From: Desulfobacterales bacterium
GTDB taxonomy: Bacteria > Desulfobacterota > Desulfobacteria > Desulfobacterales > ETH-SRB1
Direction: 5' to 3'
DNA: 59,714 bases
NCBI GenBank assembly: GCA_030610995.1
Contig: JAUWQO010000005.1
Location: 1 to 59,714 of the forward strand
Position 1 is the stretch's first letter, and every line of letters starts with the position of its first letter. The translations under genes were made by a program, and so were the position numbers. A model generated the notes under the pieces. It was not told the origin of the DNA and made no database searches. It saw only the letters and a program-made list of their open reading frames with translations. Of this stretch, positions 1-37,486 are shown piece by piece.

Positions 1-302
1 GGCTATTAGAAGTCCCTGTCTCGGTGTACAAAAATCTTCAGGATAATTGGTGGCAATTCAAATATACCTAATTGATTTATCAGTACATTTTGCGATTATA
101 TTCAAAAAATATTTTTTCAAAGAGCGAAATGTAAGATTTAAGGCCTTATTTAACGCAAAATTTTAAGGTTTTATATATTATCTCAATATGTTGCCGTGGC
201 CCGACCCCCATTCCCATTGTGGTGTGGGAGGGCTCCTCAGTGATGGGGAGTCCTATCCCGATATGCGGCACGATTTTTTCCCATAGATTCGAAATGAATT
301 AG

Positions 303-3300
303 TCATGTCGGCTCCGCAAGGACAATCTGCGGCCAGGGAACTCCCATCGCAATATTGGGATGGCGTGGTTCGGAATCGACGTGTCCATAATCGTCTCGAA
401 TTTCATCTATGGCGGTCAGGCACTCAGTCGCCAGCCGAGATTCTGCACCGTTACCGTTCACCACCATGTCAAAAAGACCTTTCCTGAGTTCAGGTGCAGG
501 CAAGCTATATAATTGCTGCATTCCGGATGACTCTATCGGCGTCTGACCAACGAGCACATGGCGCAGCGCGGTATAGAGTGCGGTACCTCGGAATCGCTTG
601 TCTTGTGCTGCGCCAACGCGAACAAGAAGTAGTAAGCCGTCTGCATCTGCCGCATTCGCAATGGCGTACTCAAGTATTGACTTAGCAGGACTATCGGCAA
701 CTCTTGGGAACCGTTCATAGACTTCTTGACGAAACTGTTCATGGGAATTCATGAAAGCCGAGAGTTTACTGCCGAAATCCATCCTATCGTGGCTTCCACG
801 TTTGCCAGAAAACGATGCATTACAGACCAAGTCCAGCAATATTCTGGCGACCGTCAGGGTATTGCGTTTGGTAAGCGCCGCCAGCCAGTCGTATTCATTG
901 AGAAACCGCTCATCTCTCTTCGCCAATTCGCTAAGTACGTTTTCAGCCTCGACGGACAGCGCGTAGCTCAATGCAGAAAGCAACCCGCGAAGCTTCCAAG
1001 GCTCCAAATAACGGTCTTCCAAACGGGTAAGTACATCCAAAATGGAACCGGGCGCTTCCGTGAATGGCAAAAGCCTTAACCATGCATTCAGACGCCATCC
1101 ATCCTGTTCCTGTAGCATCCACGGATTCGTCTTCGCTTTTTCCAACAGGTCATCAATTCCCTGAAGTACAACCTCGGAAGGAATCGTTTCTCCGGAAACA
1201 ACGAAGACAGTTAGAAGATCTTGCTTGTCAATGGCGGGAAGCGGCAATTGCAGCAGTGATGCAATCTTATCCTCCTTATCGACATAAGGCATGCTGAAGG
1301 CAACGGTCGCGAGCTTTAGGGCATGTTTGTAGTCAGCGTCTTCCGCGCCCGGTTTTATGAGATCATCTACCACGGCAAGGATGTCATTGACGAATGCCTG
1401 CGTGTCACCTTCTGTCCCGGATTGACGCTTTGCGTATTCATCAGACACTACTGAAAAGTCGGGCCACGATTTAAGAAATCCAGGTTTTTCTTCGGGGGGC
1501 TGCGACCTTCTCCAGACTGCTTTGAGAACATGAGCTGCATCAACGCCGAAGTCGTGGTCCGGCAGATAGGATTTCATTATTCGTACAGTCTGATCGTCGC
1601 CAATAGCCGCGAAGGCGCGTCTATACTGAAGGGTCCAGCACATATGTGCATCATTTTGGATTTTGCGACCTTTTTTACGCGCATCCAAGAACTCCTCCAT
1701 AGCTCGCTTTCGCCGTGCCAGGTCTTCTGATAGTAGTTCCTGAAGCACAGGCACGAGAGAGGGTGATTCAAGACGTTCCGCAGCCTGCGCTATCTCAGCG
1801 AATTGTGCACGCGTGGCCTCAGGGGAAGCGAGGAGGATTTTTGCCCATCGCTGGATCGCGGCGGACAACCTTCCGTGAGTCGGCGCGTCAAGTCGGAGTG
1901 TTTCACGCTCAACGCTTTTTCCATAGCGGGATATGAGATCAGCTAATAAGGCAATTTCGTCTGGCATTTCAGTTGCTGCACGTTCAAGAACAGCCTGAAT
2001 GAATAAATCGGGTTTGGTATTCGAAATCCAGCGGGACAGCCTGTGATACTCATCGCTCAGTACCTTATCGTATCTGCCGTTGTTTGCTTTTATCCTGGTG
2101 TGTATCCCGAACATCTGATCGATGAGTTGACCGATGGTTTTCGGCCCAACAATACTGACCGCTGATTCCCTTCCCTTATCCTTCCCCGAATTGCGTAACA
2201 CACGTTCTACAAGCGGCCCCTCGTCAATGACTAAATCGGATGTCCGCAGCAATTCGTCAGTTCGGAACGGCACTGGCTTGCCACTCTCAAGCAGCGACAC
2301 GAGCGCACCGACTACATCCTCCGGGTACAGCTCGTGCGACCGGTGAACAAGCCACGCGTTATCCTGCGACTTTTCTGAAAAGTCTATTTTCTCAATAAGT
2401 TCACGAATCTTCGTGCCCGTTTCGGCATCGCGAACGTTTGGACTCAAAAGCGTATTAAGGATTTGACGAGGATCGGTTTCTGCAATAAGTAGTTCACCAG
2501 CTTCTTTTTCCATGCGTGCTGACACTTGCGGATCGGCGAACTCATGGGGGGGCCATTTTCTGGACAAAGAGCGCCAAACCTCATCAGATGCAGACTCAAG
2601 AATATCTTTTACAAAGCGATTCGCGCGTCTGAACAGGAGGGATTCAATAGCTGACTTTTGAACCTCTAAACTTGCATCGTTCTTTGCCAGATGGGTCGCA
2701 AGTTCAATACCATCCATGCCGCTATTGCTCGCGATTTCCGCAATCACGTGCACTCGCACTTTCTCCGGAAGCGCAGCGATCCGTTCCTGAACATCCGGGC
2801 CAAGAACACTCGGCCTAAACCTGCGACCGGACCGGAGTGCGTGAAGATGTACCTGGCTGTCTGGGTCTGAAATCAAAGGCCAAATATATTGAGAAAACTC
2901 GGCCCGGCCTGTGTCAATCATAAACTTTACGGCACGGTCCACGCGCCCTTCGGTGTGCCATTTCCCGGCAAAGGACATGACATCGTCCCTGACCTGTTCC
3001 CACACTTCGTCAGATGACCGATAGATCATTTCCGCTGAAAGCAAAGGATCGATTCCCAGTGTTTCAAGAATGGCGCTTGCCACAGCCTGTATGCTGCCTT
3101 GATCCGCACGGGATAGACGGTCACATGCAAAAAGGACCGCTTCTTCCCAAATAGGTACATCAAGCACTTCTTCTCTCAACGTCTTTTTGGCGTCGTTATC
3201 ACCCGACGCCGCAAAAAGCATCAGTTGCTGTACCCAGAACGATGCGAACCATTCTTGGAATTGCTGGTGCTGGAAGGATACGCCGCCCGATTCTTCGCCG

Positions 3301-4694
3301 GACCGAACGAGCATATGCGCACTCACAAGTGCGTCGAGCACCGTCATAGGTTGAAGAAGCTGCGCGATTTGCTTGGCGTCTCTTAGATGCTCCTGCACAG
3401 TGTTGACCACGGCGCGGGCCTGGCCTTCGGATAGCGCCACGGTCTCCTCACGCGCGGCTTCAACGGCGAGACCTTCCAAAAAATCCCTGTGAAAGCCTTG
3501 GGAAGCTCCTCGTAGTGTTGCCAATTTATCCGGGTCTTGCTCCAGTTCCGTGACAAAGGATCGCAACACCTCTTCCTTGGTTGTTGGAAGCGAACCTCCC
3601 GGTGCTTGTTTCAGCAAGGCTGTCAGGTAAAGCGGGATCGCTACCAATTCCCTGAGACCCGGCGTTCGCCAAGCATGGTCCATCAGGGATTCCCCTTCCG
3701 AACTACGCAGTGCCTTGGCGATTTCCAGTTGCTGTTCTTCGGTCAGAACGTCTACTTCGACAACAGGTCCGTCGACCGGGATATCGAAGTCCTTATGCCT
3801 TGAACTGACAACCAAGCGTATATCGGGGAAATCCCGCCGGAGAGATTTAACCTCGTTGCGTGCACGTCGCTTGGATGGCTCATCAAGCTCATTCCATCCG
3901 TCCAGAATCAGCACCAACCTTCTATGCTCAGCGAGCAGCCCGAATTGACGTTCTCTCGCATCCCGAAACGCCGCTCGTCGAAGAAGCGACTGGAAGAAGG
4001 TATCGGAACGGGTTGACCATTCACTCAGAGGAACAAACACAGCGACGGAAGAAGCGTAACCAAGAATTGCTTCCGTCAGTTGCAGAAGCGTCGTTGTCTT
4101 CCCAGTACCGGGAGGAGCTATGACAGCGATTTCATCAAATACTTCAATCGCCGAGGTAAGGCCGGAAGCCGTGAACACTTCTGTACTCTTCTCATCAACC
4201 ATCTTAAGATTGAGAGCAATGGCATGCGAGGGCCATCCGGGCATGTGTTGGAAGGCTGTCAGATCTGATTTAGAATAATCTAAGAGCAGATCAACGGCCG
4301 TTTGAACACCTTCGTCATCTGCGAGTAGCGTACCGACTGGACTCGGTTTAGAAGAAACAACCTCTAAGAAAGACCTGCGTACGGATAGTCTCTTCCAGGA
4401 GAGTAATTCTTCGACCGTAAAATACGCTTCATCGGAATCAACCAGCTTTCCATGATTCTCGCAGAGCCATATTCCGTTTGAGTAGGCCTTACGCTCATCA
4501 CTGGCCAATGAAGGATCGTAGCGTGGACCTTCCGGGGATGCCGCAGTTATGTGAGCTGCAACGCCGATGTTGATCGTACCCTCGTTATCAGACGCGGCAC
4601 CTCTCGTCGGTATCCCGCAGTCAGGCTTTGAGCACCTGTAGCCGGCGCGATGCGCCAGTTTCTCCTTCGTCTTCTGCGTAAAGTCGTCTCTCAT
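303..4694 (-). CDS. STAND NTPase with N-terminal HNH-like domain, NACHT ATPase and long C-terminal repeat region; candidate anti-phage protein
   Basis: 1463-aa ORF. N-term RCSKPDCG...AHITAASPEGPRYDPSLASDERKAYSNGIWLCENHGKLVDSD resembles the HNH module found on bacterial STAND proteins; Walker A APPGTGKTT; Walker B LVLILDGWNEL typical of NACHT. Confidence 0.85.
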   Translation of the reverse strand: MRDDFTQKTKEKLAHRAGYRCSKPDCGIPTRGAASDNEGTINIGVAAHITAASPEGPRYDPSLASDERKAYSNGIWLCENHGKLVDSDEAYFTVEELLSWKRLSVRRSFLEVVSSKPSPVGTLLADDEGVQTAVDLLLDYSKSDLTAFQHMPGWPSHAIALNLKMVDEKSTEVFTASGLTSAIEVFDEIAVIAPPGTGKTTTLLQLTEAILGYASSVAVFVPLSEWSTRSDTFFQSLLRRAAFRDARERQFGLLAEHRRLVLILDGWNELDEPSKRRARNEVKSLRRDFPDIRLVVSSRHKDFDIPVDGPVVEVDVLTEEQQLEIAKALRSSEGESLMDHAWRTPGLRELVAIPLYLTALLKQAPGGSLPTTKEEVLRSFVTELEQDPDKLATLRGASQGFHRDFLEGLAVEAAREETVALSEGQARAVVNTVQEHLRDAKQIAQLLQPMTVLDALVSAHMLVRSGEESGGVSFQHQQFQEWFASFWVQQLMLFAASGDNDAKKTLREEVLDVPIWEEAVLFACDRLSRADQGSIQAVASAILETLGIDPLLSAEMIYRSSDEVWEQVRDDVMSFAGKWHTEGRVDRAVKFMIDTGRAEFSQYIWPLISDPDSQVHLHALRSGRRFRPSVLGPDVQERIAALPEKVRVHVIAEIASNSGMDGIELATHLAKNDASLEVQKSAIESLLFRRANRFVKDILESASDEVWRSLSRKWPPHEFADPQVSARMEKEAGELLIAETDPRQILNTLLSPNVRDAETGTKIRELIEKIDFSEKSQDNAWLVHRSHELYPEDVVGALVSLLESGKPVPFRTDELLRTSDLVIDEGPLVERVLRNSGKDKGRESAVSIVGPKTIGQLIDQMFGIHTRIKANNGRYDKVLSDEYHRLSRWISNTKPDLFIQAVLERAATEMPDEIALLADLISRYGKSVERETLRLDAPTHGRLSAAIQRWAKILLASPEATRAQFAEIAQAAERLESPSLVPVLQELLSEDLARRKRAMEEFLDARKKGRKIQNDAHMCWTLQYRRAFAAIGDDQTVRIMKSYLPDHDFGVDAAHVLKAVWRRSQPPEEKPGFLKSWPDFSVVSDEYAKRQSGTEGDTQAFVNDILAVVDDLIKPGAEDADYKHALKLATVAFSMPYVDKEDKIASLLQLPLPAIDKQDLLTVFVVSGETIPSEVVLQGIDDLLEKAKTNPWMLQEQDGWRLNAWLRLLPFTEAPGSILDVLTRLEDRYLEPWKLRGLLSALSYALSVEAENVLSELAKRDERFLNEYDWLAALTKRNTLTVARILLDLVCNASFSGKRGSHDRMDFGSKLSAFMNSHEQFRQEVYERFPRVADSPAKSILEYAIANAADADGLLLLVRVGAAQDKRFRGTALYTALRHVLVGQTPIESSGMQQLYSLPAPELRKGLFDMVVNGNGAESRLATECLTAIDEIRDDYGHVDSEPRHPNIAMGVPWPQIVLAEPT

Positions 4695-5039
4695 GTACTA
4701 AAGCTACCTAGCGTTTCCAGTTTTAGTCTTCCAACCGCTTACGTCGACGATCTCAATTCGTCAGTCCGTCTCGTCCTATAGTGTTCTTGTTCTACGCTCG
4801 GTCTCGGCTATTTCGCACCACGCTTCAAATAGGCTCCTCCATTGAAGCGATAGACCCGAGGGGAAAATTCCCTTCTACAGTTCGCTACTCCACTTCTATT
4901 TGTGCTATCCGCGTAGTTAATTTACCCAGTAATTTAAGCAACAAACAGCACTCCTAAATAGGCTGTTAAATGAGCTATATGAATGATCTATATAGGTCGT
5001 ATATTGTCATTAAAATTGTTCTACGACATGGATAGAGCC

Positions 5040-5163
5040 GCATAACCCGCCATCACAAGTGGGCAGGGGAAACATGCCTTTGTAAATGGCAAGTAAACAT
5101 AAAAATTGGTAAAAACCACAAACCGCACGACCCTGCCCATCTGAGTGCATGGCGTTGTTCTAC
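5040..5163 (-). other. Integron attC site (cassette 3, 218-aa ORF)
   Basis: Minus strand: R'' GTAGAAC (5157-5163), R' GTTATGC (5040-5046), stem CGCCAT...TGGGCAGGG / CCCTGCCCA...ATGGCG. R'' is the exact reverse complement of this cassette's 5' boundary GTTCTAC at 5866-5872. Confidence 0.75.
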
Positions 5164-5179
5164 TGCGGTTTGTTTTTCT

Positions 5180-5836
5180 CTACTCATTCATTGAGCGGTG
5201 TGCAGTATCGTCTTCATCAACCCAATCTTCCTCTTCCCATACCATCCCTTTACGCCCCGGAACTTTACGAGTTGGACCAGCTTTATATAAAGCGCATGAT
5301 TTCGGGCCATAACAGAACGTCTCGTATCGAAACCGTTTTTGTTTGGGGTTCCAATGGTCAATGACCATTTCAACTGCCATCTTGCAGCCCCACAAGCAGT
5401 TCTGACACTTTACATTGTAAGTTTGAGCGGCAAGCCTTCGGTGACCTCTTTCTCGATAGGTTTCAATGTCCGGCGGGATACCCTGCCATGGTGGAACATT
5501 ATGTTCTGGAATATTTGAACACTCGATAACTTTAAGCCCACTTGTTTTGTAATATTCCACAACCTCCAATCGGTTATCCAAAACCGGGTAGGATTGACCG
5601 CTGATACTATCGCCAACTTTAAAATGGTGCTTTGCTTGAGCTGCTTTGCCTATTCCGACAAGGAATTCACCTTCCTGTCCATCGATTGTTCCTTCCACCC
5701 TCAACGCATACCCCAAATAGTTGTGGCTGCGCTGATCGAATGATCGTGATAATCGTATCCTGGGCTGTACAGACATTAACCTTCCTTGCCAAGTGAGCTT
5801 TTCCGTTTTCATAATTCGATATGAATTCCTATTCAT
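5180..5836 (-). CDS. Cassette-encoded hypothetical protein with Cys-rich segment
   Basis: 218-aa ORF; CQNCLWGCKMAVEMV...ETFCYGPKSCALY; lies between two attC sites. No family recognised. Confidence 0.7.
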   Translation of the reverse strand: MNRNSYRIMKTEKLTWQGRLMSVQPRIRLSRSFDQRSHNYLGYALRVEGTIDGQEGEFLVGIGKAAQAKHHFKVGDSISGQSYPVLDNRLEVVEYYKTSGLKVIECSNIPEHNVPPWQGIPPDIETYRERGHRRLAAQTYNVKCQNCLWGCKMAVEMVIDHWNPKQKRFRYETFCYGPKSCALYKAGPTRKVPGRKGMVWEEEDWVDEDDTAHRSMNE

Positions 5837-5865
5837 TTGAGCTGCCTACAATAGTGCGTCAAGCG

Positions 5866-5935
5866 GTAGAACGTGGAATTCACCGGAAAACACCGGCGCC
5901 AGCTGGTGATTTTCCGGTGAAATGATTTGTTAGCT
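5866..5935 (-). other. Integron attC site (cassette 2, HEPN-like ORF)
   Basis: Minus strand: R'' AGCTAAC (5929-5935, contains the ORF stop TAA), R' GTTCTAC (5866-5872), stem ATTTCACCGGAAAATCACC / GGTGTTTTCCGGTGAAT with one unpaired T. R'' is complementary to the cassette 5' boundary GTTAGCT at 6486-6492. Confidence 0.8.
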
Positions 5936-6469
5936 TTTTTGCGCTATTTGTAATTTGGATATGTATTCCAAATGAATTGTTTGCAATTTCATCAAAAACT
6001 CACCGAGTTTTATAAGTGGTAACTCGGTTGAGAAGTATTCTTTTTGATTTGTTCGATAATTTTGACGTTCGTCATTAAAAATTACTGATACCTTTGGGTT
6101 AAAAGAAACACGCGAATGTGCAACAGCATTTCGTATATGTTGCAGGTAATTGACTATTGGAGTATCGCTGTGGTAGTCAGATTGAGTGTTCTTTGCAACT
6201 GTAGCGAGATATTTATTGATTTCATCGTATTCATATAGGAACTCGTCTTGAATTAATTCCCTTGGTATTACTAGCATTGAATATAGTGCCATAAGAAGAG
6301 CACCTTGATTGTCGATGCCGATTTTTACTATTTCATCTTTAATCCATGGTGAGCCAAATTCCATTTCCTCGAAAAAATTCGAATCAAGAAACTCATTATT
6401 TTTCAATTCAAGCAAAAATGCAGTAGTAAAATATGATTGAAATATCAAATTTTGTTCTTGGGAAAGCAT
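5930..6469 (-). CDS. HEPN-like family protein (gene cassette)
   Basis: 179 aa; IRNAVAHSRVSFNPK carries a HEPN-type R-x4-H motif in a mostly helical protein; start codon about 20 nt after the cassette boundary, with AAGGAGAAC RBS. Confidence 0.7.
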   Translation of the reverse strand: MLSQEQNLIFQSYFTTAFLLELKNNEFLDSNFFEEMEFGSPWIKDEIVKIGIDNQGALLMALYSMLVIPRELIQDEFLYEYDEINKYLATVAKNTQSDYHSDTPIVNYLQHIRNAVAHSRVSFNPKVSVIFNDERQNYRTNQKEYFSTELPLIKLGEFLMKLQTIHLEYISKLQIAQKS

Positions 6470-6485
6470 ATGTTCTCCTTTTGAA

Positions 6486-6548
6486 AGCTAACCCGCCGCT
6501 AATCAGCCGCGCGGCTTTTTGGCGTCGGCTGAATTAGCTTTGTTATAC
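6486..6548 (-). other. Integron attC site (cassette 1)
   Basis: Minus strand: GTATAACAAAGCTAATTCAGCCGACGCCAAAAAGCCGCGCGGCTGATTAGCGGCGGGTTAGCT. L''/L' GCTAATTCAGCCG / CGGCTGATTAGC pair with one extrahelical base, a known attC hallmark. R'' GTATAAC is complementary to the cassette 5' boundary GTTATAC (6892-6898); ORF stop lies in R''. Confidence 0.85.
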
Positions 6549-6866
6549 ATTTAATTCTTTATCTAGTAAAACTTGTATTTCATCTTGTATTTTTATTATT
6601 TTCTTTATCACTTTAGAAGCAGTTGAATTATGGATGTGAGGAAGATTATAATCCGGCATTTCACGCAATACTTTACTTCTTCCTCTCTCAATTGTTTCCA
6701 TTATCCATTTATAATCTTTTACCAAATTTGATGGGAAAGTGTTTGGATTTAATATTTTTAGCTTTGGCAAAACAGCTGCAATTCGTTTCCTGGCATCACC
6801 TTCATGTGTTGTGAGAGTATAAATTGCATCTGATAACTTTGAATTAATATATTGTAGAGATGGCAT
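6543..6866 (-). CDS. Cassette-encoded hypothetical protein
   Basis: 107-aa ORF filling the cassette from 6897 to 6492; its stop codon is embedded in R''. Confidence 0.65.
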   Translation of the reverse strand: MPSLQYINSKLSDAIYTLTTHEGDARKRIAAVLPKLKILNPNTFPSNLVKDYKWIMETIERGRSKVLREMPDYNLPHIHNSTASKVIKKIIKIQDEIQVLLDKELNV

Positions 6867-7018
6867 ATGCTTTTATATTGAAAATATATTTGTATAACGT
6901 ATAGAGTTTTATCCATTGTCCCGCAGTACAAGAATACTGGAAAGTTCGGGAGAAAAAAAGGGGGACGGGGTTGAAATTACGCGTTTCTATCCTTGAAACG
7001 AAAAGGGGACGGGTTATT

Positions 7019-7818: not shown

Positions 7819-7836
7819 TTTTTAATCCTTCCTTTA

Positions 7837-10800
7837 TCACGCATCAAGCATTCTTTTGTGCAAACGCTCTGCCCGCAGGCAGAAGGTCTCCAGCTTTGCA
7901 TTTATCAATTGCGGAAAAGGGGAGCCGTCGCTCTCAATTGCAAGAAAAGGCAGGTCTTCAATATTTGTCAGGATTTTTCGGAGCCGCTTATTTGTCGGGT
8001 CTGTCGCCAGTTTCCCTTCACGATTCATCATCGTGTTTAAGATAGCCTCTGACAGGCGGTTTGGCATGCAGCCAAACGGACCTATGGCGATTGCGCCGCA
8101 TGCATGAGAGGCTATCTCGGTTATAGAGCCGCCCACTGTGAGAACTGCCTCGCCTGTCAGATCTGGCGATATATAAGACGTGGCACTGTTTATTATTGCC
8201 TCAACATCAATAGGTTCTGCATGCACAAGTCCTGATCCGGATAAAATTGATTTGATACGTTTTTCGTAATTGGCCATATATTTCTGTTTGATTAGTAATT
8301 CAAGCTTCTCCATTTTTGGCACCTTGTAGTCAACAAGCCCTTTTCTCACTAAATAGTCGGAATATAATATCCATTCCGCAACAGGTGAACAGACAGTGGC
8401 AAAACCGCTTTTTGCCAGACGTCCTGTCAAATACTGGCGTGATATTGAATCCCTGCGGACAAATATCTCACCTATAAGGCAGATTACAGGCACCTCTTTT
8501 GGCGGAAGTTTCATGGGAATTCGGCTAAAACGTTCGGAAGTACGCACAAGTTGTTTTTCCAGTTTAGAAAAGTCCCCTCTTTCTATCTCTTCCAATATCA
8601 GGTTCCATTCCTCATTAAATATCTTCATCCCATATTCAGTATCTGTTGCATTGGCTAATATCATCGACCTGATATCTTCCATAACGTCGGATGTTACAAC
8701 AGAATTCCATGCTCTTAACTGGAAATCTTTTCCCAGGCCGGCGTAAGAATTCTCTGATGTCAGCGAAAACAGGGCTACATCCGGAAGCTCAAGCCTTTTT
8801 ACAAGGTCTTCCATGAATACATAATACTGGCCGAACCGGCATGGGCCCGAGGCGGTAGGCATAAAATAGATTAGAACCTCATTTTCTTTTTTTATATTGT
8901 AAATGTAGTTAAGCAACGTCCCTGTAGTAAGTATCAGCGGCAAACACTCCTTGCAGGAAGTATTTGCGCGTCCAAGTTTCAATATGGCCTCATCAGACGG
9001 CGGGTGGGATATTGCATTGAACCCTAAGCCGCGAAATACCGCTGCCAGGGATTCGGAGGAAATTTTGCCCATAGACGGAAACAGAAGGGTCACGCGCGGG
9101 TCACTGGCCGGCAGTGTTTTACCGGAAGATGTTATCAGGTTAAACTTTCCCTTTCCCATTTCTGTACGAGCAGGAACAAAAGCCCGCTTCTTCTGGACGA
9201 TCATCTTTTTTGCCAGAAGTTGCCTGTATGCTGCCACTATATCAAGAAAGGCCTCAACCCTGGTCTCAAGGCCGGCATCTGCCGTGTGACTGTCCAGCTC
9301 GAGGGTCAGCGATGGTTTTTGGCCCATAAGACTCCTGAAATATCCGACTATGAATGAATCCGGCCCGCAGGAAAAGTTTGTTATATAAGTTCCAAACAGT
9401 TGAGGATGCCTCTTAACGGTTCTGGCCGCCTTTAATATAAGCTGGCCCATTCCCCAGTACATATGGCGCTTTGGTTTCTCATCATCAAACGTAAGAAAAT
9501 CAAGCGGCATTACCAGAATGCCCCTTGATGCAAGCTTGCCTGGAATACCCATATGCGCTTCTTTAACAAATCCATTATAAGGCCTGGCAAATATCACCAC
9601 CGCTGTCCTGTCCGGATCTTTTTCCAGCTCTTCAAGGGTTTTATCGCCGATCTTTTTCATTTCGGCCATGCATTCTGTCTGTTTCTTTAAGGCCTTTTGA
9701 AAAGCCTTTTTGGCCTCTTTTCTACTAACACCCATCTTTATACCGGTTTCGACTAAAGGTTTTTCTGCCGTTTCCAGCCCTTCTGTCAAATCAAGCAGCG
9801 GGGTCAATACTTTTGTTTCTCTGGCCTTCAGTTCATCAAGTTTTTCTCTGAATGTAGTTCTTAAGAAAAAGGTTTCACCCTGCACAAAAGGGCAAACCTG
9901 CGAGCTTGTGCAACCCTTTTGGGCTGGAACAGCTTTGAAGTGCGGCAGGAAGATGAACTCCGGTGGATCTTCCATATAAATAAGGGAATGGAAAAAACCA
10001 TGGGTCAGTTCTGCAGGATAGCAAAAAGCCGCCTCTTTCTGATCCATTCCTTTTTTTGAAGGGAAATCAGGCACAACCGGCTCAAAGCCTAATTCGGTGA
10101 AAAACGTGGAATAAAGGGGGTAAAAAGTATTTACCATAAAACTCCTGTTTATTCCGATTCTCCCCCTGGGCTTTTTCCCGCCGCCCCCCGGCAGTTTGCC
10201 TGCATACTTATCAAAAATTAATTGCTGCCGGACACGAACAAGGTCCAGCTTCTCCACGTTATATTTCACCTTGTTTCGCAAATTATAGTATCTGTTACAG
10301 GCTCCGCCAAATGGATATTTCTTTCCTTCCAGTTTGATTATAGCTATATTGCAGCGCCGGTCACATTTTTCCTTTCCGCCTTTGCATATAAATGATTTTC
10401 CGTATTTCACGTCACGGTTAAGCAGAACATTCAGGTCAAAGATCTTCTTTTCCAGTAATCCTGTTTCAATTCTTTTTTTGACCTCAAGGGCAACACCAAA
10501 AGCGCCCATAAGCCCCGGTTCAGGAGGAACTACTATCGGCTTGCCCACAAGCGCTGCCATGGCAAACGGAACCGCCCTGTTATAGCAGACACCACCCTGC
10601 ATAAACACCTTCTCACCCACCGGCTTATTTCCCTTGACCCTGTTTGAATAGTTCATGCAGATGGAATAAACCAGACCCGCAAGAATATCCTCGTGCTTCA
10701 CACCTTCGTGAATGGCATTCTTTATATCGGAAGCGATAAAAGCGGCGCACTGATCATTAAAATTAGGTGGATTCTTGCCTTTAAAAGCAATGTCGGCAAT

Positions 10801-37247: not shown

Positions 37248-37486
37248 GGCTATAAACTGTGTTTTTTGAAACGGTCAGGCTTATAAAGAATAAAACTTGA
37301 GTAACTTAGGACTCAAGCATAAATAACTTGAACATTTCGCATCCCAGCTTCAGCTCATCTTTGACCGATCCACAATCGCAAAATCCTCAAAATAGCCTGC
37401 TATTCCTCTAATTTTGCTCAATTGGATCAATCAAATCTAAACTAAATCTGAGCGCCAAAGTGTCCAAGTTGTTTATGATCGAGTCC

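Follow-up and report, generated by a model that had tools for sequence, protein, structure and literature searches.

A decayed integron cassette array with a HEPN cassette and a probable HNH-NACHT cassette in a Desulfobacterales genome

The minus strand of the window (the whole stretch of 59,714 nucleotides analysed here, which is the complete contig C156 of a 3.0-Mb MAG in 200 contigs with an estimated contamination of 4.6%) carries, from about position 6944 to 263, three complete integron cassettes and a probable fourth (Table 1). There is little doubt that this region is a genuine piece of an integron cassette array of the chromosome, now in decay. This kind of element is ordinary and well known, the notable part being the HNH-NACHT cassette. 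The balance of the evidence favors the reading that, in this member of the Desulfobacterota, a complete NLR-like gene, coding for an HNH-NACHT protein of 1463 residues, travels as a single integron cassette of 4.8 kb and shares its array with a HEPN RNase cassette.

Table 1. Positions of the array features in the window, listed in the direction of the array.
Feature	Positions	Strand	Description
Junction cutting off the upstream site	6945-6988	.	short repeat at 6954-6988, also in relatives
3' half of attC-like recombination site (131 bp), from a lost upstream cassette	6895-6944	-	100% to C103 copy, 96% to C17 copy
Cassette 1	6492-6897	-	406 bp; boundary G/TTATAC at 6898/6897; R'' GTATAAC at 6548-6542
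ORF of cassette 1	6543-6866	-	107 aa
attC1	6486-6548	-	63 nt; 54.8 bits, E 1e-10; 89-92% to attC of relatives' integrons
Cassette 2	5872-6491	-	620 bp; boundary G/TTAGCT at 6492/6491; R'' AGCTAAC at 5935-5929
ORF of cassette 2	5930-6469	-	179-aa HEPN protein, RNAVAH (Rx4H) motif
attC2	5866-5935	-	70 nt; 20.6 bits, E 0.013 in window; exact chain on both sides
Cassette 3	5046-5871	-	826 bp; boundary G/TTCTAC at 5872/5871; R'' GTAGAAC at 5163-5157
ORF of cassette 3	5180-5836	-	218 aa; conserved cysteine-rich family
attC3	5040-5163	-	124 nt, long-loop type; fold z -3.1; relative on C63
Probable cassette 4	263-5045	-	about 4.78 kb; boundary TTATGC; R'' remnant GCAT at 266-263
HNH-NACHT ORF	303-4694	-	1463 aa
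Group IIC-attC-type intron 3'-end remnant (domain VI)	219-262	+	inside R'' of probable cassette 4

Read directly on the minus strand, each of the three complete cassettes terminates in a hairpin site with an R'' that, when reverse-complemented, gives the 5' boundary of that same cassette without a mismatch over 7 bases (three of three), and past cassette 3 the array enters a further boundary, G/TTATGC, at 5046/5045. The ORFs start 31, 22, and 35 nt inside the boundaries of cassettes 1, 2, and 3, respectively; the first two have their TAA stop inside their own R'', and the third stops before it. Moreover, when hairpin sites are linked by exact R'/R'' complementarity, a single chain of three sites is found in the 59.7 kb, namely attC1 to attC3, and none appears in 60 Markov-1 random sequences of matching composition. 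An earlier note on this DNA, made from the letters alone, had claimed three tandem minus-strand cassettes with these complementary ends, with starts close to the boundary and two ORFs stopping within R'', and the direct reading, the coordinates, and the unique chain confirm all of it; the three cassettes are present as described, but the array is larger than the note had it, with a half-site upstream and the probable cassette 4 at the other end. The G+C content changes from 32 to 35 and 46% along cassettes 1 to 3, being 51% in the probable cassette 4, as expected for cassettes of separate origins.

The attC sites were scored with a covariance model built from 13 sites of class 1 integrons and of intI-adjacent arrays of relatives, the window sequence being excluded. 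attC1 stands far above background, and attC2 is significant in the window but has an E value of 0.67 genome-wide. attC3 is unscored by this short-loop model, which likewise misses the attC beside the intI of the same genome on contig C185, so that the miss is no evidence against attC3. The alignment for a long-loop model could not be made structural, and attC3 rests on homology, fold, and chain: contig C63 has an attC with 88.5% identity to it over 113 bp and with a different R'' and R', its fold is much like that of a chained attC on contig C118, and it carries a stem motif that recurs at one other place only in the genome, the attC that comes first in the C185 integron. The minus strands of all three sites fold better than their shuffles (z of -3.1, -4.6, and -2.1, the first value being that of attC3). 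Thus, the locus has the at least two tandem attC sites that define a CALIN, attC1 and attC2 being recognized by score and attC3 by homology and fold. Separately, the minus-strand ORF at 3044-5185 of C63 (L105), directly before the attC of another array, encodes a 713-aa PHP-ATPase-like protein resembling the candidate defence protein PDC-M49A, and is perhaps another multi-kilobase defence cassette.

Beyond cassette 3, the boundary TTATGC predicts an R'' of sequence GCATAAC, and its first four bases, GCAT, are found at 266-263 (minus strand), where they abut the end of an intron, as also occurs on contig C150 and in locus L051 of another genome. The sequence that directly follows GCAT on the opposite strand, GTGGTGTGGGAGGG...CCCGAT, matches group II introns of L051 (80% over 46 bp), C103, and C150 at their 3' end. 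In C150, an intron of the same type breaks a cassette at GCCCA, in exact agreement with the TTGGGC at which that cassette starts; the same geometry is observed for a HigBA cassette in L051 (TTATAAT and ATTAT), and C103 fits but for one mismatch. Insertion of group IIC-attC introns at the R'' of the attC bottom strand has been reported (PMC7923331), and the GCAT/ATGC junction places the present piece in the same way, with its 3' end inside the R'' and in opposite orientation to the cassette gene. The difference is that only a domain VI-like end of about 44 nt is left here, domain V and the reverse transcriptase being missing, and this is then a remnant and not an intact intron. A search of Rfam gave no group II intron match for this fragment or its region of the window, its identification coming from the comparison. 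In other arrays of this genome, group II introns lie within the R'' of attC sites at about 4049-5780 of C150 and about 4188 of C103. Also, CAATATGTTRCYGTGGCCCGAC is present at 183-206 of the window and at 847-872 of L051, at the outer edge of both arrays, and is perhaps a repeat linked to truncations.

The HNH-NACHT gene is probably cassette 4 of the array, of about 4.78 kb and with a broken attC. Its protein matches the NCAB2 family (PF22726) with 77.3 bits against a cut-off of 27, and gives a weak match to NACHT (PF05729), with 22.4 bits, below the cut-off of 26.7. The N-terminus is of HNH type and resembles that of CBASS SAVED-HNH effectors, and full-length relatives at 30-37% identity, some of them annotated as HNH endonuclease, are found on plasmids. 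With bacterial NACHT (STAND) proteins having an HNH-type N-terminus it shares the C-terminal NCAB2 domain, the HNH-like N-terminus, and, by a match below the cut-off, a possible NACHT-type ATPase core, and it differs from them in being probably an integron cassette; a text search of the literature for a NACHT integron cassette found no paper. Caution is called for by the long leader (351 nt), the unusually large size, and the nearby contig end, which hides the rest of the attC. These features could also mean that there are only three cassettes and that the sequence to the left of 5046 belongs entirely to ordinary chromosome or to a defence island, the intron piece having landed at some unrelated hairpin, for instance a terminator; moreover, the plasmid relatives of the HNH-NACHT protein are not known cassettes. 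However, the intron junction carries GCAT, as expected from the boundary TTATGC, C150 and L051 likewise have this type of intron inside an R'', and no other attC was found in the leader of the gene. An array ending at cassette 3 is an unlikely reading, although one with some claim to attention, and the HNH-NACHT gene is treated below as the probable cassette 4.

No IntI was detected on the window contig, the distal end of which is cut, in support of a CALIN-like array without a local integrase. The term integrase-less used in the earlier note is then right for the locus but not for the genome, where the search for intI elsewhere found two intact IntI above the curated cut-off, on contigs C40 and C185, together with a fragment on C90. 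The attC model gives 27 matches on many contigs of this genome, and C118 and C58 hold chains of six and seven sites under the same boundary rule; IntI is above the cut-off in 38 of 60 genomes of the order. The IntI contigs likely belong to the same genome as the array, although with the estimated level of contamination they could derive from another organism. The intact intI of C185 (positions 1-4200, L010) is accompanied by an array in which the boundary rule is obeyed, with G/TTGAAC at about 1320 and attC sites at 2377-2449 (GTTCAAC...GTTCGGC) and 3996-4066 (GCCGAAC...GTTGGGC). The window array thus shares with CALINs the tandem attC sites with cassette ORFs and the absence of a local intI, whereas it is truncated at its 5' end, probably broken by an intron at its 3' end, and accompanied by intact intI elsewhere in the genome. 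On the other hand, it has in common with the sedentary chromosomal integrons of Vibrio that carry anti-phage genes the chromosomal setting and the defence-like domains in cassettes, but the host is a Desulfobacterota MAG and the cassettes are spread over many short arrays.

The authors of IntegronFinder warn that draft genomes inflate CALIN counts (PMC9024848), and the assembly might have split the window array from the integron of C185 or C40, which would then simply be a normal one whose integrase fell on a different contig, given that the genome is in 200 pieces and that both contigs end inside or near cassette arrays. Nonetheless, the window contig has another 53 kb of non-integron sequence on the side expected to hold intI and attI, and it is cut at its distal end only, which makes such a split improbable.

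This upstream side preserves the 3' half of a palindromic 131-bp site that is present in three copies in the genome, the window half included. The other two, on C103 and C17, are each followed at G/TT by a different cassette. The 131-bp site is likely an attC, although a boundary matching its R'' was not found upstream in C17. The left half of the site is absent from the window, cut at 6945, and the short repeat at 6954-6988 gives matches of 32-35 bp at 89-94% identity in two loci of same-family relatives (L061 and L072). The surviving half of this shared site indicates that the array was once longer upstream, which argues against the alternative that this place never had an ancestral array and received its cassettes by direct insertion at a secondary site (attG). 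Such insertion is a known route, according to the literature cited in PMC12901181, and intI and attI are indeed absent nearby, but the 5' flank is not plain chromosome, being half of a recombination site common to two other array heads; attG insertion was rejected on this ground and has very little probability left. Farther upstream, synteny with nine relatives ends at 7832-7841, just after a 1466-aa gene, and everything to its left is specific to this genome; since the break occurs in nine of nine relatives, a comparison with an empty site is uninformative. Elsewhere in the window, a 154-bp near-perfect inverted repeat (37321-37474) forms a long, MITE-like hairpin.

The earlier note had proposed searching related genomes for the cassettes in other orders, and this search succeeded for one of the three. 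Cassette 3 recurs in L051, a locus of the Desulfobacteraceae MAG CSMAG_1163, with 96.5% DNA identity over 5046-5865 of the window. The homology ends at G/TT on the 3' side, and on the 5' side it ends six bases inside the recombination point, the six bases TTCTAC being absent from L051. The cassette that follows is a HigB/HigA pair in L051 and the HNH-NACHT gene here. This presence of one cassette beside different neighbors, with breakpoints at the recombination points or within six bases of them, is direct evidence of cassette exchange, and the ORFs are accordingly not always syntenic. Although attC2 taken alone is weak genome-wide, the unique exact chain, the score of attC1 (54.8 bits), and this second context of cassette 3 leave a negligible chance that the sites are accidental hairpins between unrelated genes.

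The 218-aa protein of cassette 3 has relatives at 54-96% identity in Desulfobacterota, Chloroflexota, and Gammaproteobacteria, and despite this strong conservation across phyla the family gives no match in Pfam, NCBIfam, or PHROG. An alignment including these relatives shows the invariant segments VQPRIRL, GHRRL, CxxCxWGC, FCYGPK, and WEEEDWVDE. In 14 genomes of the same phylum the relatives are solitary genes, and no clear attC was found beside those examined, by reading of the flanks and with the short-loop model; this suggests that the family is not normally cassette-borne and that the cassette holds a captured copy of a wider family. The predicted structure has low overall confidence, and its better N-terminal half retrieves sub-threshold OB-fold matches (PriB and SSB, best E about 0.01-0.02), so that an OB-fold is offered as a lead only.

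In cassette 2, the HEPN-like protein of the earlier note is borne out by a PF18736 score of 30.8 bits against a gathering cut-off of 26.6 (the pEK499_p136 HEPN family) and by the segment RNAVAH, which corresponds to the Rx4-6H motif, catalytic in HEPN RNases (PMC3710099). Its predicted structure is all-helical, with a low-confidence mean pLDDT of 48. The same source already lists the pEK499_p136 HEPN and an integron cassette HEPN family (PDB code: 3jrt), which gives HEPN cassettes a precedent. The cassette 2 protein shares with these a HEPN protein with the Rx4-6H motif encoded in an integron cassette, whereas it matches the Pfam family of pEK499_p136, and a phmmer search of the PDB did not retrieve 3jrt. 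For the 107-aa protein of cassette 1, weak relatives (24-36% identity) are found in 3 of 397 genomes of the same phylum. No relatives of the HEPN, 107-aa, or 218-aa proteins were found on plasmids, nor of the first two on viral contigs, and promoter scans stayed at chance level. The storage of anti-phage genes in integrons is established in Vibrio, by the works cited in PMC12444791 (Darracq 2025 and Getz 2025). By their domains, the HEPN RNase and the HNH-NACHT protein might likewise act as anti-phage genes, of the abortive-infection type.

Strand exchange by IntI at folded attC sites, with excision and reinsertion of cassettes, is established for integrons. In the present case, an integron integrase would have inserted circular cassettes at folded single-stranded attC sites, so that the R'' of every cassette comes from its own circle and has its match in the TTRRRY at the cassette start. 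Acting in trans, the IntI of C40 or C185 would recognize attC1 to attC3 as folded sites, binding their bottom strand and exchanging strands at G/TT, and the excised circles would reinsert elsewhere; the window cassettes may thus be mobilized in trans by either enzyme. At its upstream end, the array once extended further, and a cut at 6945 has left half of the 131-bp site. At the other end, a group IIC-attC intron would have interrupted the attC of cassette 4 and subsequently lost its own 5' part, and this interruption would lock cassette 4 in place.

With these observations, a cassette common to two Desulfobacterota genomes is documented with base-level breakpoints, and intI genes, many attC arrays, and group IIC introns are placed in one environmental genome. 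If the assignment of cassette 4 is right, the size and type of defence gene carried by integrons would be extended, and phage tests of the HEPN and HNH-NACHT cassettes would be worthwhile. Moreover, a true NLR-like cassette would mean that the shuffling done by integrons is not confined to short ORFs and extends to large STAND defence genes.
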